A DNA stretch of 23,431 nt from a virus: positions 1 through 23,431 of the IMG/VR virus record IMGVR_UViG_3300048818_000405; one strand, 5' to 3'. A program made the position numbers and the translations under genes. The notes under the pieces were generated by a model that ran no database searches, was not told where the DNA came from, and was given only the letters and a program-made list of their open reading frames with translations. This document shows, piece by piece, positions 3,881-22,347 of the stretch; position 1 is the stretch's first letter; every line of letters starts with the position of its first letter.

Positions 3881-4256
3881 TACTGAAGATCAGGCTGGTT
3901 ATAAGAAACCACCGAAAGCATCTCACTTCCAAAAAGGGCGCTCTGGCAACCCTAGTGGACGCCCTCGGAAGGTCCCCGGGATCCCAGAGTTGCTCGCGAA
4001 GATTGGGAAACAAAAAGTCCTGACCCAGGGGAAACATGGCCCCAAGTCGATGACCAAGATCGAAGCCAGCTTCACCCAGTTGCTGAACAAAGCAGCCAGT
4101 GGTGATCTGAAAGCATTAAAGCTTCTCGCGGACCTAGTGATCCGCTTCCCAGAGCTCGTAAAGCAAGGAGACATGAAAACCATGGAATCAAGCGTCAGAG
4201 AAAAGCTCCTGGCGGTACTGGAACGCCATGAACGAGAGGAAAACAATGAAAGCTGA
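3870..4256 (+). CDS. DUF5681 protein, probable small terminase-like subunit
   Basis: A 128-residue basic protein whose N-terminal signature FQKGRSGNPSGRPR fits the DUF5681 family as I remember it. Such genes usually lie directly upstream of a large terminase gene, so a role in recognising phage DNA for packaging is likely but not demonstrated. The remainder is helical and polar (TQLLNKAASGDLKALKLLADL). The frame stays open to an ATG at 3741, but I take ATG at 3870 because GGAGG at 3859-3863 sits 6 bases before it and because it overlaps the methyltransferase stop by only 11 bases. Its own stop overlaps the terminase start by 11 bases, so the three genes form one translationally coupled operon. 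Confidence 0.85.
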   Translation: MANDTEDQAGYKKPPKASHFQKGRSGNPSGRPRKVPGIPELLAKIGKQKVLTQGKHGPKSMTKIEASFTQLLNKAASGDLKALKLLADLVIRFPELVKQGDMKTMESSVREKLLAVLERHEREENNES

Positions 4257-5607
4257 TCGATTCAAAGCTCTTTCGAAGGCGGCGCGCCGCAACGTGATCG
4301 CAGAACTTTCCGATGAGGAAGCAAATGTACTTTTGCATGACTGGGAATTCTGGGCCCGGTCGAACCAACTCGCTCCGCCTGGCGACTGGGTCAACTGGCT
4401 GATTCTCGCTGGTCGTGGATTCGGGAAAACGCGCATGGGCGCCGAGCAGGTCCGGCGTTGGGCCAAGGAGTTCGCGATCGTGAATCTGATCGGTCCCACG
4501 GCTGCCGACGTCCGCGACGTCATGGTGCAAGGCATTGGCGCCGGCTCCGCGATCCTGGAGGTCTGCCGCAAAGATGAAGCCCCGGTCTATGAGAAGTCGA
4601 AACGCCGGCTGGTTTGGCCGAACGGCGCCATCTCTCTCCTGTTCTCGGCCGAAGATCCTGAGAGTCTCCGCGGACCGCAACACATGAAGATCTGGTGCGA
4701 CGAGATCGCCAGCTGGAAGTATCCCGAGGCTTGTTGGGAGCAAGCCGAGTTCGGATTGCGCCTCGGTGCGAAGCCGCAGACGGTGATCACAACGACGCCG
4801 AAGCCGACAAAGCTGATCAAGATGCTTGCGCACAGTCCATCGACCTACCTCATCCAGGGCACGACCTATGATAATCGCTCCAACCTGTCGCCGGCCTTCT
4901 TCGAAACGATCATCGGGAAGTACGAAGGCACCCGGCTCGGCCGCCAGGAGTTGAATGCCGAGATTCTAGACGACCGTTTAGGTGCGCTCTGGACGCTGAA
5001 AGCGATCGACACTGATCGCGTGTTTCAGTTGCCAGCGCTTCGCCGCATTGTCGTGGGCGTTGATCCCGCTGTTAGTAGCGGCGAGGAATCCGCGGAGTGG
5101 GGCATTGTTTGCGTCGCGGAAGGTATGTCTCCATCGGGTCAGGAGTGGCCGCCCCACTACTACGTGTTCGACGATCTCAGCGGTCGCTACACGCCGAACG
5201 ATGCTGCAAAGTTTGTGGTCAACGCTTACCAAGCCCACAAAGCCGATCACATCGTTGCTGAGGTCAATAACGGCGGCGACCTGGTCGAAGCGATTCTCCG
5301 AAATGTCGATCACGCCCTTGCTTACAAGCCCGTACACGCCTCGCGCGGCAAACTGACACGCGCGGAACCGATTGCTGCCCTCTACGAGCAGCACCGGGTT
5401 CACCACCTCGGCGTCTTTGGCACACTTGAAGATCAGATGTGCGATTACGTGCCGATGGCCTCGAAGTCGCCTGATCGTATGGACGCGCTTGTTTGGGCGC
5501 TCACGGAGTTGAGCGGCGACTGCGAGCAGGAAGTGACCTGGGAGTATTCCGAGCTCCACTCGATCTCGCCGGATCTCGATGAGTTTCCCGATTTCAGGGC
5601 CTTTTAA
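4246..5607 (+). CDS. terL: Phage terminase large subunit (ATPase/nuclease)
   Basis: This is the DNA-packaging motor of a tailed phage. The 453-residue protein has an ATPase domain with Walker A AGRGFGKT (55-62), Walker B IWCDE (149-153) and a coupling segment TTTPKP (182-187). An RNase H-like nuclease domain follows, with acidic residues in VGVDPAVSSG (D273), VAEVNNGG (E339) and SPDRMDALVWAL (D410, D413). All expected catalytic acids are visible, so the protein looks intact and of normal length. ATG at 4246 is preferred over 4228 because GAGAGGA lies just upstream. The stop TAA overlaps the ATG of the portal remnant, as in intact phage packaging modules. The gene is stranded: there is no portal, protease or capsid downstream. 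Confidence 0.95.
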   Translation: MKADRFKALSKAARRNVIAELSDEEANVLLHDWEFWARSNQLAPPGDWVNWLILAGRGFGKTRMGAEQVRRWAKEFAIVNLIGPTAADVRDVMVQGIGAGSAILEVCRKDEAPVYEKSKRRLVWPNGAISLLFSAEDPESLRGPQHMKIWCDEIASWKYPEACWEQAEFGLRLGAKPQTVITTTPKPTKLIKMLAHSPSTYLIQGTTYDNRSNLSPAFFETIIGKYEGTRLGRQELNAEILDDRLGALWTLKAIDTDRVFQLPALRRIVVGVDPAVSSGEESAEWGIVCVAEGMSPSGQEWPPHYYVFDDLSGRYTPNDAAKFVVNAYQAHKADHIVAEVNNGGDLVEAILRNVDHALAYKPVHASRGKLTRAEPIAALYEQHRVHHLGVFGTLEDQMCDYVPMASKSPDRMDALVWALTELSGDCEQEVTWEYSELHSISPDLDEFPDFRAF

Positions 5608-7174: not shown

Positions 7175-7810
7175 TCATTCGCCGTCTTCGCCGTGAGGGA
7201 TGTAACGGCGGGCGATAAAAATGCCGGACACTAAAACGGTCGGCCAGTGGTCATGGATGATTGATTGCATGGCCTTAAAGTGGCACCCTGTTGTGAGCAA
7301 GTCGTCGAATATCGCCACTTCCCTGGGCACTTCGCGGACGCGAAGATCAGGATCCAATTCGTAATAGGCTTTGAGTTGATAAGGGCGAAGACGGTAGCCA
7401 TCGTGAAAACTATCCAAGTTGTCGTTTTGAATTACCAGTTCTTGAACGTCGCATGGGAGACCATCCGTGGTCCGTTGTAAGACTTGCAACATCCGGTCGT
7501 CGTAAAGCGGATGGTTTTTTTGTTTCGAACAAGGAACCGGAACCAACGTAGCCGAGGCTATCCATTGTGCACTCAGCGCTTCGCGAAGCAGGGCGCTAGA
7601 ACGCTGAATAGCCCACTCTTTGTAGCGATATTCCGCGCGTCCGCGACGATCGACGGATTTCTTAAGATTTAGAATGATGTCATTGGCAGAGCTAAACGCA
7701 AATCCTTCGCGGGGAGTATATTCCAGCAGGTAATAACATTCATCGTTCTCGTCCAGGTAGGAATGGTCCGGACGGGTATGCTCATCAATTTTCTGGAGTC
7801 GGATCGGCAA
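7175..7810 (-). CDS. Phosphoribosyltransferase-fold protein, second gene of DprA-PRTase unit
   Basis: A 211-residue protein with a ComF-like phosphoribosyltransferase core: VPVPCSKQKNHPLYDDR (91-107) and the PRPP-binding loop VAIFDDLLTTGCHFKA (165-180), with the two aspartates and TTG expected for binding ribose-phosphate. No ComF-type N-terminal zinc finger is present; the N-terminus instead contains YYLLEYTPREGFAFS. The frame lacks an upstream ATG. The likely start is TTG at 7810, with GGAAG just upstream, overlapping the DprA-like stop by 26 bases, so translation is probably coupled. From memory, a PRTase paired with a DprA-like protein is the make-up of ShosTA, where the PRTase protein is the toxin. 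A nucleotide-salvage or competence role is less likely given the defence neighbours. Confidence 0.75.
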   Translation of the reverse strand: MPIRLQKIDEHTRPDHSYLDENDECYYLLEYTPREGFAFSSANDIILNLKKSVDRRGRAEYRYKEWAIQRSSALLREALSAQWIASATLVPVPCSKQKNHPLYDDRMLQVLQRTTDGLPCDVQELVIQNDNLDSFHDGYRLRPYQLKAYYELDPDLRVREVPREVAIFDDLLTTGCHFKAMQSIIHDHWPTVLVSGIFIARRYIPHGEDGE

Positions 7811-8681
7811 GATGCTTCCGGATGTCCTCGTATTCTTTGACGCGGATAGCGCCCATTTCCTGATATTTCTTCGGCCACGTCAGACCGGAATCTTGGAAGC
7901 AGCTATCAAGGATGAATAGTTTGCGCTTCTGCTGAATGGCGGCGGCGGCTTGCATGAGTGTCCCGGAGGTTTCACCAGCTTCGACAATAACCGTAGCAGC
8001 ACTGAGTGCTGACATCGTAATATTGCGTTGGGGAAAAAAGCTCCTGTTGCTTCGCCAGTCTTGCCGCGAATACCTGATAACGGGCACCTGGCTGATCAAC
8101 AGATAATCGCGCGCAATCCGCTTCTGAAGATCGGCATTTTCGGGCGGGTATACTCGGGACAGGGGCGTACCGATAACAGCTATGGTTCGACCTTCGCTTC
8201 CTATCGCGGTCTGGTGAGCTACGGTGTCGATTCCCGCCGCAAGGCCCGACATTATCGTGTAGCCGTCTTTGACCAAGTTCCGCACAAGCTTTTCGGTCCT
8301 TGCGAGGCCTGCATCAGTAGGTTTTCGCGTTCCCACCACAGCTACACTAGGGGTGTGCAGTAAATCCCACCATCCCTGAAAATACAGCAGTTCCAAGGGA
8401 TTCTTGGCATCGCGCAGTCTTTCCGGGTAATCTCCCGTGCCGTACACGCGGATACCAAAGTGCTTAATATGCGCCCGCACGAAAAGCTCGGTTGCCTCTT
8501 TGGCGCACTGTTCCGCGAAAGGACGAAGAATGAAGTCAGACGGTAAAGCGTCCTCTTTGTCGCGGAAGAGGTCGGCAATCTTCTTGAATGTTTGGTGTGC
8601 GTTTGTCCACAAATACTCGTATGCTCCCATTTCCAACCAAGGGGAGATGGGCCGGGACAACGCTAGGGGCAAACTTGCCAT
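7785..8681 (-). CDS. DprA/Smf-like Rossmann protein, first gene of DprA-PRTase unit
   Basis: A 298-residue DprA-type protein. Residues 111-250 carry the Smf signatures in order: SVAVVGTRKPTDAG (112-125), IMSGLAAGIDTVAH (143-156), AVIGTPLSRVYPPEN (168-182), FFPQRNITMSALS (215-227) and VIVEAGETSGTLMQAAAA (231-248). The N-terminal 100 residues are helical. No C-terminal winged helix of housekeeping DprA is evident. In transformation DprA loads RecA on single-stranded DNA; here the partner is a phosphoribosyltransferase and the neighbour is a restriction operon, so a defence or antitoxin role (as in ShosTA, from memory) is more likely. The frame stays open to 8936, but I choose ATG at 8681 because a near-consensus promoter ends 7 bp upstream of it. 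Confidence 0.82.
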   Translation of the reverse strand: MASLPLALSRPISPWLEMGAYEYLWTNAHQTFKKIADLFRDKEDALPSDFILRPFAEQCAKEATELFVRAHIKHFGIRVYGTGDYPERLRDAKNPLELLYFQGWWDLLHTPSVAVVGTRKPTDAGLARTEKLVRNLVKDGYTIMSGLAAGIDTVAHQTAIGSEGRTIAVIGTPLSRVYPPENADLQKRIARDYLLISQVPVIRYSRQDWRSNRSFFPQRNITMSALSAATVIVEAGETSGTLMQAAAAIQQKRKLFILDSCFQDSGLTWPKKYQEMGAIRVKEYEDIRKHLADPTPEN

Positions 8682-8688
8682 GCCTGTC

Positions 8689-8717
8689 ATTATAGGCGAA
8701 TAAAAGGCGAATGTAAA
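8689..8717 (-). promoter_or_regulatory. Sigma-70-type promoter of the DprA-PRTase unit
   Basis: On the minus strand TTTACA (8717-8712) and TATAAT (8694-8689) are separated by 17 bp, a near-consensus housekeeping promoter. The ATG at 8681 is only 7 bp beyond the -10, so transcription would begin at or next to the start codon and the mRNA would be leaderless or nearly so. An operator-like box fills the spacer. Confidence 0.72.
8698..8712 (-). promoter_or_regulatory. 15-bp direct-repeat operator, copy 1 (LexA-box-like)
   Basis: Minus strand ATTCGCCTTTTATTC: two ATTC half-sites 7 bp apart. It lies between -35 and -10, 3 bp from the -10 and sharing one base with the -35. It is 13/15 identical to the box at 16223-16237, differing only in the first base of each half-site. 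The form matches the GTTC-N7-GTTC LexA site known in Alphaproteobacteria, so repression by a LexA-type protein is inferred. Confidence 0.6.
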
Positions 8718-8949
8718 GCTTCGCCTCAACCATTTATTGAAGGGAATATAGCACGGCATCCGTGAGGGCACAACACGGTCATTCAGGTTGATACTAATTC
8801 CCCCGTCGACAAAGTGTTCTGTGGCACTCAGCAGCCCTTCAGATTGCGATCCAGCTCCGAGGCCTTCTTGATGAAGAGAGCAGGATTGAGATTTGGTGCA
8901 CCGAACAAGAGAGGTGGCTTCGCGCCGATCTCTCACGACAGTCAGTGGC

Positions 8950-11900
8950 TTACATTGCCCACTTCACTCCCTGGCTTGCGTAGTTAACCATTAAGTCAAA
9001 GACCTCATTGCACTTTTCGGTGAAGATGACGCGGTCATAGCTCTTGGGTAGATGCGCGTCTAAGACTGATTCAACCTCAGACCGAACTCGACCCTTGGAC
9101 TGCACGTCCTTATACCAATCCGTTACCAACACGTTCGGACTTTCTTCGTGGAGGCGGCGCAACAAAGACTTCGCGGCGAGACGAACCTTGATAGTTTCTT
9201 CATCGGTCATCTTGTCTTCTTTCAAGAGATCGAAGAGTTCCAATTCGTCTTCTGTGAGGCCCTCGCGAATATGGCGCTCCGATTCATCTTTCAAATCCTG
9301 GGTGAACTTCACCAATTCGTCGAAGTAGTTATCAGCCGATGAACTGCCAGCGTTGTATGCATCAATGATGCCTTGAAGTCGCGTAGCGAAATCGGTACGC
9401 GTGGAGTTTTCCCTGAGCATCTGTTCGAGCTTATGACTAATGAAGGCACGTAGATCGGTGATCTCGATGTTTTTGTATTTCGCCGCTCGGAAATCCTCCT
9501 TTAGTTTCTCGAAATTCATCCTGCTCAAGTCCCAAGTCTTGCCTGATTGGGTGATACGGAATTCTGTCTTGCCGTCGAGTTTGCCATCGACGACGAGGCT
9601 TTCATCCAGCAGCTCGCCGACACGAATTGCGACCGCGTCAAAATCCTTCTGTTCAACAATGGCATCGACCACTCCGCGTAAATATTGAAACGCCGCGACA
9701 GAGCGCACCACAGGGCTTCCAAGAATCTCAGGTTTGCAAGCTTCGTAGAGGCTGGTAATCGTATTTTCGTAGACTGCAAATCCTTTTCGCCATTCATCTT
9801 TTGTCAATAATTTGTTTGCATATTCGGCAAAGGCGTCAACGTTCTTGAATACATCTTTGTTCTGCAAAAGAGCCGCTATATCAATAGCTAGTTCGGAGCA
9901 AAAAGCGGTACCTTGGTTGATAGCGTCGTCGAGAAGTTTGAACAAGTCCGCTTTATCGTGCACCGGCAGGTCTTCTTGTCCCTCTTGCCTTTGGGCATAG
10001 TCTTTCAATGCCTTTCTCATGTTTCGGAAAACGTTGTAGTAATCAATGAGTTCGCCATTTTTCTTCTCAGCGCCATCTATTTTCCAGGACGTGACACGGT
10101 TTGCCCGAGCAATGGTCTGCATCAAGGTGTGATCTTTCATCGGTTTGTCGAGGTATAGAGTGGAGAGGGTAGGAGCATCAAAGCCCGTGAGCCACATCGC
10201 GCAGACGAAGACCAATTGCAACGAGCTCGCCGGATCCTTGAAGTTATATTCCACATCATGGCCGTGGTCATCCACCACGCTCATCCGCTCGCGATGTGGC
10301 TTGATGTTGAGGTTTTGCTTGGCAAACTTCTTTTCTTCTTCGCCTTCTTCGCTTACGATCACAGCCATTTCCACTGATCGCATGTAATCCCGCTGTTTCT
10401 GTAACCGGCTTTTCTCGTCAGCGTCCGTTGACTTCTTGATGGCACCGCTCAGTTCCTTAATTTGCTCTTTCCATAATCGCGCGACCTTGTCATACATCTT
10501 CACTGCTGTAAATTTGTCCAGAGAAACGGCCATTCCCTTACCGAGGTATCCGCGTCGGGGGAAGTGATAGACAATATCCTTTGCGATCGTTTCAAGTCGA
10601 TCTTCACGTTTAATAACTTCGATTTCTTTTGCGAACCTGTTTTCCAGTTTTGACTGCTGGGCGTCATCGAGATTCTCATCCTCGACAATATCGGCGAGGT
10701 CATCGTCGAGGTCATCGTTTTGGTTCAGCACTTGCGGAACACGCTTCTTGTAGAACAATGGGACCGTTGCGCCGTCGTCCATTGACTGCTGAAAGTTGTA
10801 TTCCGATACGTAGTTGCCGAACCATTGGTTGGTTTTTCGACTACGACCGAGCAAAGGAGTGCCGGTAAAAGCCATGTACTGTGCGTTCTTAAGACCAGCC
10901 CGCATGTTTTCGGCCAGCGTCTTGTACTGAGTGCGGTGTGCTTCGTCAACCATCACAATGATGTCACTACGTGGAGACAGTTCGGGATACGTCTTGCCAG
11001 CAGGCCAACCAAATTTCTGGATAAGCGTAAAAACCAGCCGCTTATTTTGGCCAAGGAATTTCCGCATCTCCTCGCTATCTTTAGGCTGTGCCGCGTCAGC
11101 CTTCGTGACTGTGTCCGTGTGCAGAAAGTTACGATAGATCTGCCCGTCTAAGTCCTCGCGGTCGGTAACGACTACAAACGTGAAGTTGCCTGTTTCCTTG
11201 CGGAAGATCTTACGGACGAAAAAGATCATCGAGAAACTCTTGCCCGAACCCTGCGTGTGCCAAAACACTCCGAGTTTGCCTTCTAGTTCTTCCCGTCGAA
11301 GAAAGGATTCATAGGCGCGGTTCACGCCGATAAATTGGTGATTCTGCGCGATAATTTTCTGCTTGTTGTCGTAATAGAGGACAAAGTTCTCAACATAATC
11401 CAACAGTCTTTGCGGCGAGAACAAGCCAGCGATTAAAGCTTCCAGACTCGTGCCGCTCCGCTCGATCTCCTTACGATCAACTTTCTCTTTCTCGTCGTCC
11501 GCACGGAGCCATTTGAAGAAATGCTCCCATTCGGCAGTGATACTGCCGACTTTGGTCTCGATTGCGTTTGAGAGCACGCAAAAAGCGTTCGTGAGGAAAA
11601 GCTGGGGAATTTCCCGCTTGTAATTCGTGATGTTATCGTCGAACGCATTTTTGAGCTTCACGTTGGAGTTTTTCAGCTCAATGAAAACCAGCGGGAGTCC
11701 GTTGACGTAGAGCAACACGTCGGGACGACGGAACCCGCGCTCGCCTTTGACCCACAGTTGCGTCACAGCCATGTAGTGGTTCTTGCCCGCTTCGTTGAAG
11801 TCAATCAGCTTCACGTGCTCTTGCTGCTTTACACCCTTGGAGTCGTCGAACTCCACTGGGATGCCGTCGCGCAGCAGGTTGTAGACTTCCTGGTTAGCGG

Positions 11901-12165
11901 CAACGAGCGACATCGCCTGGCGCCGGTCCAGCAACTTTTCCAGCGCATCATCAATGACTCTTGCCGGTATGTCACGGTTCAGGCGGACGGCAGCTTCCTT
12001 GACGCGATCCACCAGCATTACATCGCGCTTGTTGGCTCGTCCCGAGCCGTCATTCAAATCCTCTGGGTCTTCCGTGCGACAGTCGAGCGTGTCGAATCGG
12101 TACAGCTGGCGAAGCTTCTGCACCAAAGCCCGCTCAATTTGGTCTTCGGAGATGAAGTTAGGCAT
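8950..12165 (-). CDS. hsdR: Type I restriction endonuclease subunit R
   Basis: The motor and nuclease subunit of a Type I restriction system, 1071 residues, a normal length. The N-terminal PD-(D/E)XK nuclease shows RRPDV (D149) and FIELKNS (E163, K165). The SF2 helicase has Walker A TQGSGKS (304-310), the DEAH box VMVDEAH (405-410 region), FTGTP and motif VI-like QTIARANR. A C-terminal helical region of the HsdR/DUF3387 type binds the methylase core. It cleaves unmodified DNA after ATP-driven translocation when bound to HsdM2S. The ATG overlaps the hsdS stop region by 8 bases, so it is the third gene of the hsdM-hsdS-hsdR operon. All catalytic residues I can check are intact, so it looks functional. 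A 268-bp gap holding its own promoter separates it from the DprA-like gene downstream. Confidence 0.96.
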   Translation of the reverse strand: MPNFISEDQIERALVQKLRQLYRFDTLDCRTEDPEDLNDGSGRANKRDVMLVDRVKEAAVRLNRDIPARVIDDALEKLLDRRQAMSLVAANQEVYNLLRDGIPVEFDDSKGVKQQEHVKLIDFNEAGKNHYMAVTQLWVKGERGFRRPDVLLYVNGLPLVFIELKNSNVKLKNAFDDNITNYKREIPQLFLTNAFCVLSNAIETKVGSITAEWEHFFKWLRADDEKEKVDRKEIERSGTSLEALIAGLFSPQRLLDYVENFVLYYDNKQKIIAQNHQFIGVNRAYESFLRREELEGKLGVFWHTQGSGKSFSMIFFVRKIFRKETGNFTFVVVTDREDLDGQIYRNFLHTDTVTKADAAQPKDSEEMRKFLGQNKRLVFTLIQKFGWPAGKTYPELSPRSDIIVMVDEAHRTQYKTLAENMRAGLKNAQYMAFTGTPLLGRSRKTNQWFGNYVSEYNFQQSMDDGATVPLFYKKRVPQVLNQNDDLDDDLADIVEDENLDDAQQSKLENRFAKEIEVIKREDRLETIAKDIVYHFPRRGYLGKGMAVSLDKFTAVKMYDKVARLWKEQIKELSGAIKKSTDADEKSRLQKQRDYMRSVEMAVIVSEEGEEEKKFAKQNLNIKPHRERMSVVDDHGHDVEYNFKDPASSLQLVFVCAMWLTGFDAPTLSTLYLDKPMKDHTLMQTIARANRVTSWKIDGAEKKNGELIDYYNVFRNMRKALKDYAQRQEGQEDLPVHDKADLFKLLDDAINQGTAFCSELAIDIAALLQNKDVFKNVDAFAEYANKLLTKDEWRKGFAVYENTITSLYEACKPEILGSPVVRSVAAFQYLRGVVDAIVEQKDFDAVAIRVGELLDESLVVDGKLDGKTEFRITQSGKTWDLSRMNFEKLKEDFRAAKYKNIEITDLRAFISHKLEQMLRENSTRTDFATRLQGIIDAYNAGSSSADNYFDELVKFTQDLKDESERHIREGLTEDELELFDLLKEDKMTDEETIKVRLAAKSLLRRLHEESPNVLVTDWYKDVQSKGRVRSEVESVLDAHLPKSYDRVIFTEKCNEVFDLMVNYASQGVKWAM

Positions 12166-13417
12166 AGGCGGCTGCCGTGGACTCGGCTTCCAATTCTTCT
12201 GCCATGCCGGGAGGAAAGTGGATGTCGCGATTTTCGACGGAAAGCTTGCCGGACATGAGCCGGGGAAGCAGCGACTCCCTTGCTCGCGTCAGGACTGCGG
12301 TTGCTTTCGTTAGTTGTTCCTTCTGCTCGTGAAGGGGCTTGACGGTGGTATCAAATTGTCTTTGCAACTGCTTATCGGGAACGGCCATCTTGATTCCGTT
12401 AATGTGATTCCGATTCAGTGTTGGAACGCCCGCACCCGAGTTGAAATTTTCGAGCCCCATGTTCTTCAGCGTATAAAAGATTAGATACGGTGAATTTCCA
12501 CAGAAGTCCTTGACATATAAAGCTGTATTCAGCGGCCATGCCCTGCAGTTGACCATCAGCACAGTTCCAAGACTCCCGGACCTACCAGTGGTAATTACCG
12601 GAGGCTCTGCCTTGAATTCATCGTGGTAAGTTTTAATGGTTGTCGAGGCAACCACAGGATAGCTTCCCGGTGTTACATTCTGCTCAGGCAAATCGTAGCC
12701 ACGTTTTAGCACGCAGAACTTACCGAATGTTGTGTTGTCCCATGTCTGCGGCGTGCCTTTGATGAATTTTGCGCTTTCATGGCCCGGAAAGCGTAGGCGG
12801 ACAAACCATTCGCAGTAGACTTCCTCAGTCAGCTTTTCCAGCAATGCGATCCGTCGCATGTTGTTTTCAATCAGTTCATCGTAAGCTGAAAGAATCGCCG
12901 CAATCTGTCGTTGGACTCGCAACTCCGGTATTTGCAGTTCCGTGTGCTTCTTGAAGGCTGTGTATTGAAACCTCGAAACACCGGTGTGCTGGATGTTGAA
13001 AACTGCCATATATCCGGTCCGATGCAGCTCTTGGAGTAGATAGTAGATAAACCGCGGCGAATATTTGCTCGTGTTGAGACGTAGATGTCGACTGAAACTC
13101 GCGCACAGTACGGGGATGTCTGAGTGGTGGAGAAAGAAAGACTTCTTTAAAATGGCGGTTCGTCCGGTTGACTGGGTCGACGTACCGCCCGCCGTTTCTA
13201 AAATGATGTCCCCCGGTTGAAGATGCTTTCGCTCAGCAATGTGGTCCCTGACCCACCGTCGTGGAAACTCAGTACTCGGATTGTCAAGGTTCGCGAAGTC
13301 CGTCCCGCGAATGATTGTTACTTCGCAAAAGCCAACTAATTGTTCGCTCTTGCCCCACTCACCATCTTTGCTGTCTAGAAGGATCTGCGAGAATGACGTG
13401 ACTTTCCAACCCCTCAT
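12158..13417 (-). CDS. hsdS: Type I restriction-modification specificity subunit S
   Basis: The DNA-recognition subunit, 419 residues. It has the standard two-target arrangement: TRD1 (about 1-165), a central helical spacer (RQIAAILSAYDELIENNMRR, 170-189, then IALLEKLTEEVYCEWFV), TRD2 (about 222-360), and a second helical spacer near the C-terminus (LQRQFDTTVKPLHEQKEQL). Each TRD reads half of a bipartite site; the sequence alone does not tell me which bases. The first TRD is unusual in having RGTDFANLDN and GGTSTQSTGRTAIL rather than the more common G-N/D-I-PFG pattern. The start ATGA overlaps the hsdM stop and the end overlaps the hsdR start by 8 bases, which fixes it in one operon. Both halves appear complete. 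Confidence 0.93.
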   Translation of the reverse strand: MRGWKVTSFSQILLDSKDGEWGKSEQLVGFCEVTIIRGTDFANLDNPSTEFPRRWVRDHIAERKHLQPGDIILETAGGTSTQSTGRTAILKKSFFLHHSDIPVLCASFSRHLRLNTSKYSPRFIYYLLQELHRTGYMAVFNIQHTGVSRFQYTAFKKHTELQIPELRVQRQIAAILSAYDELIENNMRRIALLEKLTEEVYCEWFVRLRFPGHESAKFIKGTPQTWDNTTFGKFCVLKRGYDLPEQNVTPGSYPVVASTTIKTYHDEFKAEPPVITTGRSGSLGTVLMVNCRAWPLNTALYVKDFCGNSPYLIFYTLKNMGLENFNSGAGVPTLNRNHINGIKMAVPDKQLQRQFDTTVKPLHEQKEQLTKATAVLTRARESLLPRLMSGKLSVENRDIHFPPGMAEELEAESTAAAYA

Positions 13418-15489
13418 AGGTCGCCCGTAATCACTTTGATGTTTGCAGAGATAGTTTCTTGAAGCTTAGCGGCGCTGGCGCTCAGTGTGGCAATCTCGCT
13501 GCCAAAGCTGAGTATCTCGGAAATGAACTCCTCCTCCGTTTTTCCATCGTTCTCAATTACCACCCCGACGTAACGGCCTGGATTGAGCGAATATTCCTGC
13601 TCTTTCAAGTCAGCGGGTGCGGCGAGTTTACACAGGCCAACCACATTCTCGTATTCCGCCTTTGGGAAGCGTTCCTGCAACCAGCGGATGTGCTGATAGA
13701 AACTTTCCGCGTTCTTTGTCTCCTTGTGGAGTTCCTCCAGCGCGGTTTTGAGAGCCTTGGTCTTGCGGTCGATAACAGCCCTTCTGCCGTCTGCCTGCGC
13801 CTGTTCGGCCTGTCGCTTCTCGTGCTGGCGCACCGTTTTATCCAACTGTTTGAGACCATCATGCAGCGCGGCAAAAAAAGGGTCAAAGTCTTCGCGTAAC
13901 TGGTGCTGAGCTTTGTTCTTCTGATCCACGGCTTTTTCGCCGGAGTGCTTCGTTACATAGTGCTCGTAGCGGACTTGGAGTTTGTTGAGGCCCGTCCATT
14001 GCTTCACAAGTTCAGCCACTGCCTGCTTACCCGCTGCATCGTCGAGCACTTCGAGCAATTGAGCAGAGACGGGTTCCACACGAGCCTTGTTCTCAACAAG
14101 CCGTTGCGCACCCGCAGCAAAATAGCGATCAACAAGGTGCACAAACTTCTCCCGGCGGCCTTTGTGAAGCTGGCTGATTATGGCGATATTCTTGATTTGC
14201 TCGTCGGAGAATTCACGGTGGGCGCGGTCGATCTGGGTGAAGATATTGCGAGCATCTATGAAGAGGATGCGGTCGTCGGCCTTGTCTTTATCGAAAAACC
14301 AGAGTGTGGCGGGGAGTGTGACGGTATAGAACATGTTCGAAGGCAGCGTCAGCATGGCGTAGATGAGATTTTCTTGAATCAACTTTTGACGGATGGCGGC
14401 TTCGGAGTGGCGCGCGTCGGAGGCAGAGTTGGCCATCACCAGCGCGGCGCGTCCCTTCGGTTTCAGCGACGTTGCAAAGAGATTAATCCACAAGTAATTC
14501 GCATTCGGGACGGTTTCCTTACCCTTATCTTTTTTCTTTGCTTTGGTCTTCTTGCGTGGAATGCCGTAGGTATTAAAGCGCTTGTCCTTCTCCACACTGG
14601 TGAGGCTCACGTCGTCCACGTTGAACGGCGGATTAGCGAGGACGTAGTCGAACGCGCCGAAACTGCCGAACGGATCGTCGTAGTAGGTGTTTGCCTTCTT
14701 AATATCGCCACGGAGACCGTTCACTGCGAGATTCATCTTTGCCAGGTTGATGGTCTCCAGCTTGTTCTCCTGTCCGTAAACGTAAACACCGCTGTCGGAC
14801 TGCTTGAGGTCCTTCCGGTGTTCAGCGATGAAGTGGGCTGATTGAACGAACATGCCACCTGACCCGCAAGCAGGGTCAAAGACCTTTCCGCCGTGCGGCT
14901 CGATCATCTCCACCATGAGACGAACTACAGAGCGCGGTGTGAAAAACTCGCCACCCTTCGATCCTTCGGTGCGTGCAAACTCAGCGAGGAAATATTCATA
15001 AATCTGTCCGAACAGATCACCGGTGAAATCCGCCGGAATGTTGGCGAAATTCTTAAGCAGCTGATTAGGAATGGTTCTCGTCTTCTCGTCGCGGGTTAGG
15101 CGGAAGTACTCATCCTTTGGTAAGACGCCGTCAAGTTCGGGTTTGTATTCCTCGATAGCTTTCATCGCCTCTTTGAGGGCTTTGGCGATGTTCTTTTCCT
15201 CGGGCAAGTTCAGTAGGTGGTCATAGCGGGCATGGTCGGGTAAGTAAAATCCGCACTTTTCGACGGCGATCTCCGAAATCTTTTTCTCGCGTCGTGTGCC
15301 CTTCCGTTTTTGGTATTCCGCAAGGATTTCAGCTTCGTGACGACGGTAATTATTGTCCGCGAACTTCAAAAAGATCAGCCCGAGCACTGGCGTGGAGTAC
15401 TCGCTGGATTTTAGGTCGGAGTTGGCGCGCAGGTTATCAGCGGCACTCCAAAGGTCAGCTTCGAGTTGCTTCAGTTGTTCACGAGTCAT
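13414..15489 (-). CDS. hsdM: Type I restriction-modification methyltransferase subunit M
   Basis: The adenine-N6 methylase subunit, 691 residues. An HsdM N-terminal helical domain (1-150) is followed by GGEFFTPRSVVRLMV (179-193), SAM-binding motif I DPACGSGGMF (205-214) and catalytic NPPFN (286-290), the gamma-class order. The C-terminus ends in the YSLNPGRYVGV motif typical of full-length HsdM plus a coiled tail. A lysine-rich insertion (RKKTKAKKKDKGKE) lies after NPPFN at about 318-331. The C-terminal half is highly charged and probably coiled. It is the first gene of the operon. The 113-bp upstream region has no strong ribosome site; two GATAATCT repeats could supply a -10 but I see no good -35. 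Confidence 0.96.
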   Translation of the reverse strand: MTREQLKQLEADLWSAADNLRANSDLKSSEYSTPVLGLIFLKFADNNYRRHEAEILAEYQKRKGTRREKKISEIAVEKCGFYLPDHARYDHLLNLPEEKNIAKALKEAMKAIEEYKPELDGVLPKDEYFRLTRDEKTRTIPNQLLKNFANIPADFTGDLFGQIYEYFLAEFARTEGSKGGEFFTPRSVVRLMVEMIEPHGGKVFDPACGSGGMFVQSAHFIAEHRKDLKQSDSGVYVYGQENKLETINLAKMNLAVNGLRGDIKKANTYYDDPFGSFGAFDYVLANPPFNVDDVSLTSVEKDKRFNTYGIPRKKTKAKKKDKGKETVPNANYLWINLFATSLKPKGRAALVMANSASDARHSEAAIRQKLIQENLIYAMLTLPSNMFYTVTLPATLWFFDKDKADDRILFIDARNIFTQIDRAHREFSDEQIKNIAIISQLHKGRREKFVHLVDRYFAAGAQRLVENKARVEPVSAQLLEVLDDAAGKQAVAELVKQWTGLNKLQVRYEHYVTKHSGEKAVDQKNKAQHQLREDFDPFFAALHDGLKQLDKTVRQHEKRQAEQAQADGRRAVIDRKTKALKTALEELHKETKNAESFYQHIRWLQERFPKAEYENVVGLCKLAAPADLKEQEYSLNPGRYVGVVIENDGKTEEEFISEILSFGSEIATLSASAAKLQETISANIKVITGDL

Positions 15490-16242: not shown

Positions 16243-16335
16243 CATGCTACAGTGGTTTTTCCGAATGAAGAATTGAAGAGGTTTCGATGGACTTTTCACC
16301 CTTGTTTGCTTACAGTTGGGCACGACACCGCTTTC

Positions 16336-16560
16336 GTGACGAATTTACATCGACAGTACGAGATTCGTTGTCCCATCCATGGCTTCATCACGCTGAACTC
16401 CTGGGAAAAAGAGATCATTTCTCAACCCGCGTTCCAGCGTCTTCGCCGGATTCGCCAACTGGCGTGGACAGACCAAGTCTATCCCGGAGCTATGCACACT
16501 CGGTTCGAACACTCGCTGGGCGTAATGCAGTCTATGGCGTCCACGTCCACCCTTTTGTAG
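16336..16560 (+). pseudogene. Truncated HD-domain phosphohydrolase (SAMHD1/dGTPase-like N-terminus)
   Basis: From a plausible GTG start at 16336 the frame encodes YEIRCPIHGFI, then EKEIISQPAFQRLRRIRQL, WTDQVYPGAMHTRFEHSLGV, the hallmark N-terminus of HD-domain nucleotide phosphohydrolases related to SAMHD1 and dGTPases. Proteins of this family run several hundred residues, but here the frame ends 13 codons after SLGVM, before the HD dyad and the rest of the catalytic domain. Beyond 16560 the DNA belongs to another gene on the opposite strand. It is a gene fragment with no expected activity. The frame is open upstream to 16252 without conserved sequence. Confidence 0.75.
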
Positions 16561-16561
16561 T

Positions 16562-16942
16562 CTAGTGCTGATTTTGGCATTCCTTCTTCTGGCTATACCA
16601 GCGGATGCCGACAGGTGTAACGGTGAGGGAATCTATTGGTCCTCCGACTTCACGGCTGTCGGAATGAGCGTCCAAAACACTCTGAATCAAACTGACCGCA
16701 GTGAGAACATCCCAGTCATCTTTCGGAGCGGTAGCCAATCGACTTTGCCGCTGAACAGTCTTGTCGGAGTCTGAGAATAGAGTCACTCGGAATTGGCCGC
16801 CAGTGATTACAACTTCGGCATTCCCTTGAGAAACAGACCATCCTTTGATTGTGTTCGTAGCCTTGAGCCAATGCCATTCGCGATCAGCTCCCAAGGCAAA
16901 GGCTCCCGACAGTAATAGCGCAGAGAATATTAGGAAGCGCAT
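16562..16942 (-). CDS. Small exported protein of unknown function
   Basis: A 126-residue protein beginning MRFLIFSALLLSGAFALGAD, a clear Sec signal peptide with a likely cleavage near residues 16-19. The mature part starts EWHWLKATNTIKGWSV and has alternating beta-like segments (AEVVITGGQFRVTLFSD; VGGPIDSLTVTPVGIRWYS) with few cysteines. I do not recognise the family. ATG at 16942 is chosen because GGAG lies 6 bases upstream and the signal peptide begins there; the frame is open to 16990. It converges on the HD fragment, the two stops being 1-4 bases apart, which suggests a recombination junction. A periplasmic role unrelated to the defence genes is likely. Confidence 0.6.
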   Translation of the reverse strand: MRFLIFSALLLSGAFALGADREWHWLKATNTIKGWSVSQGNAEVVITGGQFRVTLFSDSDKTVQRQSRLATAPKDDWDVLTAVSLIQSVLDAHSDSREVGGPIDSLTVTPVGIRWYSQKKECQNQH

Positions 16943-17091
16943 GAAGCTCTCCATCCCGTTAGGATAACTGTTGTAACCAGGCGATTTCACTAATTGACGG
17001 TTGTTAGTGCAATGTCAATTGTTCGCCAATTGAGGTAGTGGCCGAAATCTGCGTTGAAGACATCCAAGGCATCCCTCAAGCGTCTTCTGTG

Positions 17092-18831
17092 TCAGTCAAT
17101 GGTCATCTGTTCTGGTGATTCGGATTCTTCATCCTCGTCTCCATTCGAATCGGCCTCGCGTTCCCATGCAGTTGGTACTGAAAAGTCTGCGGTCATCCAA
17201 ATATCGGAGCTGATCACTTTAGCCAGCAACTGCTTGAGGTCGGGAATGATCTCAATGGTGTTTTCGAGAATCCAGAGCAATTTCAGCAACTCATCATCAA
17301 ACTGCCATCCGTTAGGCCGAAGAAGATCAAGAGGTGACGTTTTCTTGCCTGCGCCTTTCTTCATGCGGAAGGCAAGCCATGACTGAACGACATTGAATCC
17401 TGAGACGCTGAACTCCCAAAGTTCGGGTTCGATATGCTCAAACACACCAGCGCCGACATAAAGCTCTTTCGTAGGAGCGCTGTATGAGAACACTTCAGGA
17501 TAGTGCTCTGAATCTGTCGGGGTGCCCACTTTGCAGCGGGCTTTTCCCGGTGGAATGTGGCCGGGCATGGTTCCATTCGGGACGAATCGCTCACCAAATG
17601 TGTGGAGCCAGATCAGTCGCTTTCCAAAGCTCACTGTGTCTTTGAAAAGAGCGGTTGTCTTCGTAATCGGAATCCTCGGCCCCGGCGTCGTCAATTCTTC
17701 CCAGAACATTTTGGCATAATCAGGCGAAAACAAGACTGCATAGCAGTAGGCAAATAAATCCCCCGGCGTTACATCCTGAAGGATCAGCAATACTCCCGAC
17801 GTAATGTTGGGCTTAGTAGCAGCACTGTCCCTCCACAACGGGATGATATGCTTACCGCCAAATGAACCTCTGAAGTGGTGCAAGTCTGGGATCAGCGCTG
17901 TCGTGATCGCACTCGGTCCCTCCCCCAACACCTCGGTAAGGAGGCTTGTCAAATAGAGTTGCTCAGGGCCGTGTGCAGCACACAATTTTCTTCGAGGCCG
18001 ATCGCAAAGACGCACGTCGAGAAGGGCCAATCGGCGGTCGAAGCTCCTGAACGCATATCCCATGGGCGGAACGGAAGGCGTGTTTGCACTCAGCTCATTT
18101 AGAGGGACAGTCTTTTTTTCATCTCCGCTGAGTGGTTTGTACTCTCTTTCAATAGTCCTCGCCGTTGTCTCTCTTAGCGCCAGGCGTTGACTGTTGCCTT
18201 GGCGACCCAACAGGGCCTTCCAGCGCTCCTGAAGGAGTTCCGCAGTTTCGCCAATCGGCCAATTTCTCTTGAACTGGACGCCGTTTTCTTGCCAAGGAAA
18301 GATGTCAGTGATTAGCGGCCAGTTCCAGTAGTTATTGGTCGTCGTCGGTATAAAACTATCAAACCATCCGATGGGAGCGTCTCGCCATGGAATATCGGTG
18401 AAGTGCTTCACTTTTGCAAGACGCTGGAGCTTCTCGTCTGCCGTTCCTGTAAATCTGGCATATCGGACCTTTGCGGGGCCTTCACTGGGAGCACCGTACC
18501 GGACGCCGACCGCAATGACCACGGGAGTCTGAATTGCGAAGACGTTTTCTGTAACCCTTGCGCCACGGCTGTCGCCTTCGAGATCGATCAGCCAGAGATC
18601 ATCAAAGGTCTGCCGCATGACCTTGCGCATGCCCGCGAATCCCGGACCGCGTAGGTATGAAGCCGCAGTAATAAAGCTCACAATGCCTCTTGGTGACAAA
18701 GTTTCGAACACTTTCCAAAGAGCCCATCGCCAAAAGTAAACGTAGTCGTTGTAGAGGTTCTTTGCGTGTACGCCATCTCCAGTTTCCGACAGCGGCGCAA
18801 TGAAACCCTGCAAGATTCCGGTTCCATCCAC
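17092..18831 (-). CDS. C-terminal part of frameshifted restriction-methyltransferase (specificity region)
   Basis: This frame continues the methylase that starts at 20380 after a +1 shift in the G run at 18857-18863. It carries the region after catalytic NPPY: HAKNLYNDYVYFWRWALWKV, RGIVSFITAASYLRGPGF, ENVFAIQTPVVIAVGV, then a long C-terminal target-recognition region with GDLFAYCYAVLFSPDYAKMF, like the C-terminal specificity domain of Type ISP/IIG enzymes. The tail is acidic (SNGDEDEESESPEQ). With the shift corrected, the protein is about 1095 residues. No independent start with a ribosome site is visible, so alone it is unlikely to be made as a functional protein. Confidence 0.85.
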   Translation of the reverse strand: MDGTGILQGFIAPLSETGDGVHAKNLYNDYVYFWRWALWKVFETLSPRGIVSFITAASYLRGPGFAGMRKVMRQTFDDLWLIDLEGDSRGARVTENVFAIQTPVVIAVGVRYGAPSEGPAKVRYARFTGTADEKLQRLAKVKHFTDIPWRDAPIGWFDSFIPTTTNNYWNWPLITDIFPWQENGVQFKRNWPIGETAELLQERWKALLGRQGNSQRLALRETTARTIEREYKPLSGDEKKTVPLNELSANTPSVPPMGYAFRSFDRRLALLDVRLCDRPRRKLCAAHGPEQLYLTSLLTEVLGEGPSAITTALIPDLHHFRGSFGGKHIIPLWRDSAATKPNITSGVLLILQDVTPGDLFAYCYAVLFSPDYAKMFWEELTTPGPRIPITKTTALFKDTVSFGKRLIWLHTFGERFVPNGTMPGHIPPGKARCKVGTPTDSEHYPEVFSYSAPTKELYVGAGVFEHIEPELWEFSVSGFNVVQSWLAFRMKKGAGKKTSPLDLLRPNGWQFDDELLKLLWILENTIEIIPDLKQLLAKVISSDIWMTADFSVPTAWEREADSNGDEDEESESPEQMTID

Positions 18832-18838
18832 GCCTGCC

Positions 18839-20380
18839 TCACCAAAACGAACCCATCCCCCCCTTTCGCCTTTCTAATCCAGCATCCTGTTCTTCGATTT
18901 CTTGGCGGTCGTACGGAGGATTCCCGAGACACACAAGAACTGGAGTTTCTGCTTTCACCTTCTGAGCCCGCTTGTGTTCTTCACCGAGGTTTTTGTACGT
19001 GAGAGGAAGGTGCTGAGGGGGTACGGCGTGTGGGGATTCTAAAGTGTCAGTCAGGTAGACGTGCACGCCATCTGCCGGAACCGCGCTGTTTTCCGCGATG
19101 ATCTGCTGAGTGAGCCGCAGATGAGCAACCGAGTAGGGACCGACAAGTATCTCAAAAGCATGCAGATTGGTTGCCGCGATTGTAGCAGCGTTGACCCGCA
19201 TGCCTTGCCCTTTCGCAGCCTCGATTTTATCCAGAGCGTGACGCAGCGCAGCCAGAACATAAGTACCTGTTCCGCATGCGGGATCGAGTGTAACAACTTT
19301 GGAGTCAGCAAAGGAATCTTCCGCGCCGAACTTGCTGGCTAGAAGTTCGTCGATCAAGCACACTTGAGCTTGGACCACCGCAACGGGCGTATAGTACACG
19401 CCTCGGTCCTTTTTCATTTTCGAGTCGTAAGCTCCGAGGAAATCCTCGTAGAAATAAAGCCAAAGGTCCCCCTCGGACTTGGCAGACAGCTTCGAGACAT
19501 CGACCGCTCCAATGACCCGTTCGAGAAGACTGACCGGAATCTCGATTGCCTTTCGCGCATCATCGACGCTCAGAATCTTGAGGGCATCCGAGAGTAATTT
19601 ATGCCCAGCCTTTATAGTCTTTGCAGCGCTGTCGGTTGTGAGGATCGAAGCACCAGAAAACTTGGCCAGTAAGAGCGCGTAGGTTAGGGTTTGTGCGTAG
19701 GCGTCGGCAAATTGCTTGTCATCCGCGTCGGGGAAGAGGTATCTCCGCCAGTCTTTTGCAAGGTTGCTAAGATCGGAAGCGGGATCTTGCACTGCTTCGA
19801 GGACATCGGACTTCAAGAAACGGCAAAGAGGAGCAAGTATCTCGGCCAGCGCTTTCGGAGTGGATGGAACAACTGGCTGCCAAGATAAGAAGTCGTGGAA
19901 CAGCAGGTCTAGACGATCCGCATCCTTCTCCGTGATAGCAGCAGCGCCATCTTGCGTCACGTCTCCTGAAAACCTAATCAGGCTACCAACCTTCTCTCCA
20001 TTGCGAAAAAGTACCCATTCGCTGCCGTTCGTATAAATCAGATTCGGCAAATCCTGAAACTTGTGCCATTGAATTCTGTCGTTGCCCTTGAACTTCTTTG
20101 GATCGGCACCCTTTTCCGGAGCCTTCAACTCGACATGTCCAATGAGCAGTTGGTTGACGGTAACACCCATGTCGGGACGACCCGAGACCTCTGAAACATG
20201 GACTTCCGTGACAACCTCAACGGTTTTGCCGGACGGCGAGCCGATAGATTTGAACAACTCTTCAACCGGAGACGTGAGTTGAGCCTCGGGAGAGAAATCC
20301 ACTTTGAGCGAGAATTTTTTCCTTACTTGCTCTGCAAAGTGGCAGACGGACTCAAAAGGCTTCACCTTTGGCTTTTCCAT
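18839..20380 (-). CDS. N-terminal part of frameshifted single-chain restriction-methyltransferase (Type IIG/ISP-like)
   Basis: Residues are counted from the GTG at 20386. The N-terminus holds a PD-(D/E)XK nuclease, GRPDMGV (D72) and VELKAP (E86, K88). A helical connector (150-320) follows, then GVYYTPVAVVQA (329-340), SAM motif I DPACGTGTY (368-376) and catalytic NPPY (489-492). This is the layout of Type IIG enzymes, cutting and adenine-methylating in one chain; I see no helicase, unlike true Type ISP proteins. After RRKGG the frame reads MGSFW and stops; removing one G from the seven-G run restores GGWVRFGEAG and joins the C-terminal part. I use ATG at 20380, with GTG at 20386 possible. There is no ribosome site; the transposase remnant ends within this start, so native upstream control is missing. 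Confidence 0.88.
   Translation of the reverse strand: MEKPKVKPFESVCHFAEQVRKKFSLKVDFSPEAQLTSPVEELFKSIGSPSGKTVEVVTEVHVSEVSGRPDMGVTVNQLLIGHVELKAPEKGADPKKFKGNDRIQWHKFQDLPNLIYTNGSEWVLFRNGEKVGSLIRFSGDVTQDGAAAITEKDADRLDLLFHDFLSWQPVVPSTPKALAEILAPLCRFLKSDVLEAVQDPASDLSNLAKDWRRYLFPDADDKQFADAYAQTLTYALLLAKFSGASILTTDSAAKTIKAGHKLLSDALKILSVDDARKAIEIPVSLLERVIGAVDVSKLSAKSEGDLWLYFYEDFLGAYDSKMKKDRGVYYTPVAVVQAQVCLIDELLASKFGAEDSFADSKVVTLDPACGTGTYVLAALRHALDKIEAAKGQGMRVNAATIAATNLHAFEILVGPYSVAHLRLTQQIIAENSAVPADGVHVYLTDTLESPHAVPPQHLPLTYKNLGEEHKRAQKVKAETPVLVCLGNPPYDRQEIEEQDAGLERRKGGMGSFW
18857..18863 (-). repeat. Seven-G homopolymer causing the frameshift
   Basis: Seven C on the plus strand (G7 in coding sense) inside the methylase gene. 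Six G would give one continuous frame of about 1095 codons with GGWVRFG; seven give a stop 7 codons later. Either a sequencing/assembly error, a mutation, or a phase-variable tract. Confidence 0.8.
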
Positions 20381-20382
20381 GA

Positions 20383-21190
20383 TCACGATGCCAGCAGTTC
20401 ATCCAAAGTCCAGACATGATCTGTGATTCCCGCTTCCATGCTCGGGGTGACACGCAAACTTTGATGCACGCGGCAGAAGTTATAATACGCGAAGTGCAAC
20501 GCGACCGCCGCTCTCAGGTTCTCCCATTTTTTCGAGAACGCATTGGTGAGCCGAGTCAGCCTGCGAATCTGCATCCGCATGGTGAGGTTCTGGCGCTCTA
20601 TATGTGACGTGCAAACGCGCTCGAAATCTGGCATTCCGGCTCTTGGGACTACCTCCACGTCTACGATCTCTGCGGGTGAGTACCGTTGCTCACCATCACG
20701 AGAAGCGCCGTAGACTTTGATTAACTGCGCGTAGTCGATTTCACTTCCGAACACGCGCTCAACTGCATCGGGATATGAGGGCCAGCCATCCGTGGTTAGC
20801 TGGAATTTTCCTTCCGTGGCGCGGCGAAGTTTCACGATGAATTGCAGCGTGTCTTGCCGATTGCGCTTGCCCAGATGCCACGCCAGAATCAGCTTTGAGT
20901 TACGTTCCATTGCGACGTAAGTGTAAGCGTCTCCGAGCGTATCCGCCTGCGTTGTACAGATTCGCCTTCGCTCTTTCCTTCATGCCCACATAGCCCCAAA
21001 TTTCATCGGCTTCGACATCGCGGACGTGAAGTTTTTGGATCGTGTCCGCTAACAGTTTTTCGCAGCGTTCCCCGGCACCGCACAAGCAGGGTCGCTATGG
21101 TAGTCCGGTCTAAGCCAGTGATCCTCTCAGTGCTCCGAATGCTGTTTCCTTCAAGCAGGAGCCGGGTTGATTCCCTGCGGCGAAAAACTC
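20383..21190 (-). pseudogene. IS1-like transposase remnant, at least two frameshifts
   Basis: Three reading frames together give most of an IS1-family DDE transposase. The N-terminal part is NSIRSTERITGLDRTTIATLL (about 21094-21155), the middle is GERCEKLL...VEADEIWGYVGMKERAK (21085 to about 20965), and the C-terminal part is GDAYTYVAMERNSKLILAWH through TTDGWPSYPDAVERVFG, HIERQNLTMRMQ and ALHFAYYNFCRVH to 20383. The DDE residues are visible in ADEIW, TTDGW and HIERQ. A single extra T near 21088 breaks the first junction and another shift lies near 20945-20965, so the gene is dead. I see no terminal inverted repeat on the 20383 side; the frame stops inside the methylase start, so that end of the element is missing. 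Confidence 0.85.
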
Positions 21191-21312
21191 AACCAGTAGT
21201 CATCGCGGTACTTGGGCTGACTGCGAAACGCGATAATTGGAATAACGGCAAAGGCAGCGACGAGCTTCAGCGCTAAGATACCCGAAACACATAGCAGTGT
21301 GATTCCGAACCC
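21151..21312 (-). pseudogene. Possible membrane-protein remnant
   Basis: A frame open from a stop at 21313-21315 to a stop at 21151-21153 encodes GFGITLLCVSGILALKLVAA, then FAVIPIIAFRSQPKYRDDYW and LSFSPQ. A 28-residue hydrophobic run followed by basic residues looks like a transmembrane segment. There is no start codon, an in-frame stop precedes it, and its end overlaps the transposase N-terminus near 21170. It may be a gene piece truncated by the insertion; chance is also possible. Confidence 0.25.
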
Positions 21313-21388
21313 TTACGCACCTAACTCCCATTCATAAGCACCAACAAAAGCGACTACCACGATGTTCGATAACTGCTGTTAACAGGCG

Positions 21389-21534
21389 TGGCTGTTGAAA
21401 AACTCCTTCTCGTGAAATTCCCGAAAATAAAATTGCGTCAGGAAGCCCCACAATCGATCTTCTCGGATCGGGTGGACATTTTCTATCCTCCAAATTTTGG
21501 CTGTTTTGAGAAAAGTGGACTTTTTCAACAGCCA
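21389..21534. mobile_element. 146-bp MITE-like element with inverted ends
   Basis: The ends are inverted copies: TGGCTGTTGAAAAACTCC on the left and, read on the minus strand, TGGCTGTTGAAAAAGTCC on the right (17/18). CAGGCG occurs immediately outside both ends (21383-21388 and 21535-21540), a probable 6-bp target duplication. The interior has no transposase. From memory, GGCTGTTGAAAAA ends occur in IS5/IS1182-type elements, so this is probably a non-autonomous derivative or a solo deletion relic. Confidence 0.7.
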
Positions 21535-21701
21535 CAGGCGATTACACTAACTGAGAATTGCGCCACTCGCTCATTCCACCCCGTCAGCTAGCCCCGCTCG
21601 CGAGCACGCTCCCCGCGTCCCAGGGGTCCAGTTCCGTGGGGGTCGACAATTTTTCCCTCACGGTATAACCCCCTCAAACAATTGGGGGGGTGAGAACACC
21701 A

Positions 21702-21721
21702 CGGGATGGAATATGAACCCC
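21702..21721 (+). repeat. 20-bp direct repeat, left copy
   Basis: CGGGATGGAATATGAACCCC, identical to 22379-22398. The two copies bracket the P-loop kinase-like gene. Similarity continues with TGCG after a one-base C difference. Just upstream is a small CCCCC/GGGGG hairpin at 21668-21691. Confidence 0.75.
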
Positions 21722-21761
21722 CTGCGACTAATCACCACCGTTCAGCAGCAGTCGACCGCTT

Positions 21762-21790
21762 GCGACAATTCCGCAAGACGATTCGATAAT
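21762..21790 (+). promoter_or_regulatory. Possible promoter of the P-loop gene with overlapping inverted repeat
   Basis: GCGACA (21762-21767) and GATAAT (21785-21790) are 17 bp apart. The -35 lies within a perfect inverted repeat CTTGCG-N7-CGCAAG (21759-21777), which could be a repressor site. The -35 matches consensus in only four positions. Confidence 0.4.
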
Positions 21791-21819
21791 GTCCTTAAAA
21801 TCAAATAGCCTTTAGGTCC

Positions 21820-22347
21820 ATGATTTCCAAACCCATCTCTCCTCAGAAATATAGAAGGATCGTCCTCGTGTGTGGTATCCCGGGTTCCGGAAAGACGATC
21901 TATAGCATGTGGCTAGCTCAGCAAAAGGGGTTTGATCACCTGGATTTTGACGAACTACTCTCGGGACGAGGTACTCCAACGCAGCTTAAATTGATCGAAC
22001 TTCTGAAAAAAAGTCCGAACGGTTTTGTTCATAAACTTTCTAGGAGAGGGCGCACGGTAATTGACTGGGGCTTTCCGCCCACCAATATTCCGCTCATCCG
22101 CACGTTGCAGGAGCGGGGAATTTCTGTCTGGTGGTTTGACGGGGATCGGGAAGCTGCGCTGCAGAGTTTCACTGCTCGTGGCACTGTGTCTCTGGATGCT
22201 TTCTGGATTCAAATGGACGCTATCGAAGAGGCATGGAGTCAGATCAAAGAGATTATTGGGGACCGTATCATCAACGCTGTCGCAGCAGGACCAACTCACT
22301 TAGCGTCGGAGAAGATCTTTGTCGAGATGTTTAGATCGGGTGAATGA
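21820..22347 (+). CDS. P-loop kinase-like protein (zeta-toxin/AAA_33-like)
   Basis: A 175-residue protein with a textbook Walker A, GIPGSGKT at residues 19-26, directly after a beta strand (RRIVLVC). Acidic DHLDFDELL and TVIDWGFPP follow, and later WWFDGDREAALQSF. This fits small predicted nucleoside or zeta-toxin-like kinases (AAA_33 type) that phosphorylate a small molecule or RNA, but I cannot name a substrate. The length is near the family minimum and it appears complete. The ribosome site is weak (AGG 6-8 bases before ATG). It stands alone between two 20-bp direct repeats, with a candidate promoter 30 bp upstream. No antitoxin-like partner is adjacent, so a toxin role is not supported by context. 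Confidence 0.72.
   Translation: MISKPISPQKYRRIVLVCGIPGSGKTIYSMWLAQQKGFDHLDFDELLSGRGTPTQLKLIELLKKSPNGFVHKLSRRGRTVIDWGFPPTNIPLIRTLQERGISVWWFDGDREAALQSFTARGTVSLDAFWIQMDAIEEAWSQIKEIIGDRIINAVAAGPTHLASEKIFVEMFRSGE

Follow-up and report, generated by a model that had tools for sequence, protein, structure and literature searches.

The closest characterised relatives of the gene described here are TaqIII and TaqII of Thermus aquaticus YT-1, two Type IIC/IIL enzymes (PMC5587805) sharing about 45% identity with it over nearly the whole length. A Type IIL enzyme, DrdV, is available as a structure (PDB 7LO5, identified as DrdV in PMC11842806). Poly-G phase variation is described for the Type IIG gene cj0031 of Campylobacter jejuni, where it is confined to a subset of alleles, with many homologues lacking the tract (PMC4889913). 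In Campylobacter, G tracts of eight or more have been shown to switch, most of them 9-10 long, and seven G serves as the lower cut-off for phase-variable tracts, at which mutability may be <1e-5 (PMC6321876).

The window analysed here is the whole 23,431-nucleotide stretch of an uncultured, virus-classed IMG/VR contig (IMGVR_UViG_3300048818_000405). A gene on its minus strand (20386-17092) has two halves, of 515 and 579 codons, in different frames owing to a run of seven G. The initial annotation took this run for a possible phase-variable switch. The reading we favour, at roughly even confidence, is a private, recent loss-of-frame indel in a known kind of restriction-modification (R-M) gene, real in the organism.

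One gene in two frames

The G7 homopolymer lies at 18857-18863 (minus strand; C7 on the plus strand), and the minus strand across it reads GAAAGGCGAAAGGGGGGGATGGGTTCG. The N-half ORF (20386-18839, 515 aa) ends in ...RRKGGMGSFW*, with its stop six codons past the run, and the C-half ORF (18831-17092) encodes 579 aa. RRKGG is read in the N-half frame and WVRFG in the C-half frame, which puts the extra base in the run; protein alignments likewise placed it between Lys508 and Trp511, i.e. inside the run. With G6 or G9 a single frame of 1097-1098 codons is open up to the natural stop, and with G5, G7 or G8 the frame is broken. G9 was rejected as the intact length, since relatives read KGGW at this position and none of those shown in the alignment has an additional Gly. 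The claim that removing one G rejoins the two frames was thus confirmed, G6 giving one open 1097-aa frame.

The run in itself is unremarkable: the window has two G/C runs of seven, against 2.1 ± 2.0 expected from shuffles, and none longer. It stands out only because an otherwise good gene is broken by it.

Both halves matched one PADLOC Type IIG model consecutively (PDLC03631, called REase_MTase_IIG; N half 18-483, C half 501-1068 of 1086), which supports one broken gene and agrees with the single-chain Type IIG-like enzyme first proposed. The N half has a PD-(D/E)XK-type nuclease motif, a helical linker and N6-adenine methyltransferase motifs I and IV, and matched N6_Mtase (PF02384). The C half has the rest of the methyltransferase domain and a target recognition domain, and matched Type_ISP_C (PF18135, E 1.3e-69). 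The nuclease motif (RPD...GHVELK), SAM motif I (DPACGTG) and motif IV (NPPY) are all present, and they are conserved in the family alignment and in alignment with DrdV. NPPY stands ~16 residues ahead of the run, and the break thus falls just past the catalytic motif. Enzymes of the TaqII/TaqIII/DrdV kind carry a nuclease, a methyltransferase and a recognition domain on a single polypeptide of ~1000-1100 aa. The 1097-aa G6 reading agrees with this; the deposited G7 sequence encodes two pieces.

Judged by its sequence, the gene is a single-chain Type IIC/IIG/IIL-like R-M enzyme of the TaqII/TaqIII kind, more distantly related to DrdV and frame-broken as deposited. This kind of enzyme is already known, and the gene is a further, frame-broken example. 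Two other assignments were rejected. Neither half has the helicase domain of a Type ISP enzyme, and the PDB match to that type was limited to the methyltransferase and recognition part. The gene is not a Pgl/BREX methylase either: the full-length match was to the Type IIG model, and PADLOC reported no PglX or BREX family among the ten proteins scanned.

Expression in spite of the break, by +1 recoding, by transcriptional slippage at G7, or by two separately translated halves that reassemble, is highly improbable. A G7 run can slip, a possible GTG start lies at 18831, 7 bases past the N-half stop with a GAGG-like element between, and two-subunit methyltransferases exist. Against these points, halves translated separately would be missing the conserved WVRFG, and no aligned relative has a frameshift or split here. 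The shift needed is +1 or -2, so the classical -1 heptamer does not fit, and a -1 programmed frameshift was rejected.

The KGGW site among relatives

The intact spelling would be AAG GGG GGA TGG (Lys-Gly-Gly-Trp), with G6. Across 85 relatives, the residues downstream of NPPY are [R/K]KGGWVRFG or a near variant, with G509 conserved in 84, G510 in 78 and W511 in 83 of them, and the G6 reading restores this KGGWVRFG. TaqII, TaqIII and an Oceanithermus relative have AAG GGG GGT TGG, also with G6 in frame at the KGGW codons. From the gene's own codon usage, the chance of G6 or more at KGGW is ~0.06, which is uncommon, but not exceptional.

The alignment across the site covered 89 relatives, with loci from plasmids, genomes and viruses. 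Not one of them is broken or carries G7 at this point, and in most there is no run of even five G; the nearest is only ~60% identical, so their lack of G7 says nothing about length variation within the species. Homopolymers are depleted in the relatives when compared with codon-shuffled genes, both for coding runs of at least seven (30 observed, 81 expected) and for G runs of at least six (29 observed, 63 expected). Together with the 0/89 count, this depletion speaks for a one-off breakage. No close alleles of the gene were found in viral contigs, searched with two exact patterns flanking the run, or in plasmids, searched by megablast.

The 89 relatives had been picked by full-length score and lean to intact genes, so a separate survey was done with the C half only. 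Among 796 genomes of two phyla, 31 had a match, and most of the well-matched members have frames of ~1090 aa or longer. In the broken members examined, the breaks are at scattered other sites and none is in a G run: one lies ~30 residues upstream of the run position (G044), one near residue 430 (G080), and one gene is interrupted by a 4.2-kb gap near residue 653 (G398). Short open frames in the survey were checked for a break at the KGGW site, and none was found in a G run.

In other genomes, two relatives (L092:2230-2400 and L096:2720-2900) have lost their frame upstream of KGGW with no homopolymer involved, which is scattered decay within the enzyme family. On the Thermus sp. WG plasmid pWG16, a locus (L005:1964-5267) has been annotated as a pair of genes, and the sequence between query residues 354 and 404 is scrambled; it is another broken TaqII-like gene.

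Phase variation, in which slippage between G6 (on) and G7 (off) would reversibly switch restriction and methylation, is unlikely. It has a precedent in Cj0031, a Type IIG enzyme put into two frames by G9/G10, most homologues of which also lack the tract (PMC4889913). Both halves being intact is what a switch would leave, and seven G reaches the PhasomeIt cut-off (PMC6321876). However, G6/G7 is within chance expectation for the window, and it falls short of the characterised switching tracts and of the length, beyond chance and of eight or more G, by which SSR-mediated phase-variable genes are recognised. The low mutability possible at the seven-G cut-off also counts against it, and length variants are not known. 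The comparison of relatives also gives no support to the switch proposed at first: the tract is not conserved and is explained by the KGGW codons, relatives avoid homopolymers, and those that are broken break at unrelated, non-homopolymer sites. Given that cj0031 homologues often lack the tract, poor conservation lowers the probability of switching and does not abolish it. The more specific case, in which a very short G6/G7 tract at the active-site loop switches a TaqII-like Type IIC/IIL enzyme of an uncultured bacterium (or of a mobile element in it) and restriction is lost along with modification, is likewise unlikely. If true, it would extend phase variation to the TaqII-like group.

Age of the break and its neighbourhood

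Near-invariant residues are kept at 92 of 95 positions in the N half and 92 of 94 in the C half, where the relatives' medians are about 0.99. Both halves are therefore otherwise intact, as had been noted, and this normal retention means that the break is recent or artefactual.

A decayed IS1-family transposase lies directly upstream (20383-21200, minus strand), with a nonsense TGA near its start, two frameshifts and a C-terminal truncation. Its stop codon overlaps the first codon of the R-M ORF, so the native leader of the R-M gene seems gone. No sigma-70-like promoter was found on the minus strand in 16900-21900. The decayed transposase fits a degenerating neighbourhood, while its two single-base shifts could instead point to indel errors.

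The main alternative to a fixed mutation, itself tentative, is an error of sequencing or assembly. The organism would then have G6 and an intact Type IIC/IIL enzyme, and the consensus one G too many. Four facts suit an error: apart from the run, the 1097 codons show no damage; the reading frames of TaqII and TaqIII contain G6; the contig is from an uncultured source; and the transposase has two more single-base shifts within 2.3 kb. Several observations count against it. Other runs of at least 7 bases in called genes of the contig (near 7515, 13873, 18113 and 22006), among them the seven-base A/T runs of other ORFs and of the C half, do not disrupt the frames; this speaks against systematic homopolymer errors, though these are A/T runs. 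The nonsense codon beside the two frameshifts makes the IS1-family gene look like a true pseudogene, with decay not explained by homopolymer errors. A run of seven G is also short for miscalling by short-read platforms.

Under the favoured reading, a fixed mutation, the extra G would most likely have come from slippage during replication of the G6 run in the conserved KGGW codons. It would shift the frame just past the NPPY motif, and translation would now end six codons beyond the run. The predicted N-terminal product would have the nuclease, but neither a complete methyltransferase nor the target recognition domain, so the gene should lose restriction along with modification. This would be a recent inactivation private to this allele, in surroundings that are themselves degenerating, with no dedicated switch. 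Three points weigh on the other side: the allele is known from one consensus sequence, which a consensus error fits too; the downstream half is otherwise undamaged, as it would be in the case of an error; and relaxed selection is not evident within the gene itself.

Several other features were seen in the window. A ShosT (PRTase-like) and ShosA (DprA-like) pair, a defence or toxin-antitoxin-like system known in PADLOC, lies at 7175-8936 (minus strand). A complete-looking Type I R-M system follows at 8950-15489 (minus strand; HsdR 1071 aa, HsdS 419 aa, HsdM 691 aa). With the Type IIG-like gene, these make the segment a small defence island with two R-M systems. On the plus strand, 2567-5607 encodes a ParB-like N6/N4 methyltransferase, a DUF5681 protein and the large terminase subunit; for ~1.5 kb beyond these genes the plus strand has no long ORFs. 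A serine recombinase and a DUF2924 protein lie at the left end of the window, and together with the terminase-side genes they look like a prophage remnant. A short ORF at 16252-16560 (plus strand) resembles, by eye and with no Pfam match, the N-terminal part of an HD-domain phosphohydrolase; it ends after 102 codons and is probably another gene fragment.

If G7 is real, this is another R-M inactivation on a defence-rich, possibly mobile segment. One slip would then remove nuclease targeting and methylation together, so that self-cutting is avoided. More generally, a gene-breaking homopolymer may be there simply because a conserved Gly-Gly pair is encoded at that point, and comparison of relatives tells it from a contingency locus.

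Comparison with known systems

Cj0031 of Campylobacter jejuni is a single-chain Type IIG enzyme, and a length change in a poly-G run divides its gene between two frames, as in the window (PMC4889913). Its tract is G9/G10 with demonstrated switching, whereas the gene in the window has G7, and no variants of it were seen. The Type ISP enzymes LlaGI and LlaBIII (PDB 5FFJ and 4XQK) have methyltransferase and Type_ISP_C recognition domains as found here, but also a helicase-like ATPase, and no helicase domain was found in the gene in the window.

DrdV (PDB 7LO5/7LVV) gave a full-length match over positions 9-1034 (E 5e-63) with a six-sequence profile, and this match gave the domain layout. It is distant in sequence, and after NPPY it does not conserve the KGGW stretch. 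The enzymes of Thermus aquaticus are nearer: by accession and length, the plasmid relatives L009 and L003 are taqIIRM (1105 aa) and taqIIIRM (1101 aa). Unlike the frame-broken gene in the window, the TaqII and TaqIII genes are intact and the enzymes proven active (PMC5587805). They share with it a single chain of ~1100 aa, the same domain order and G6 at the KGGW codons.
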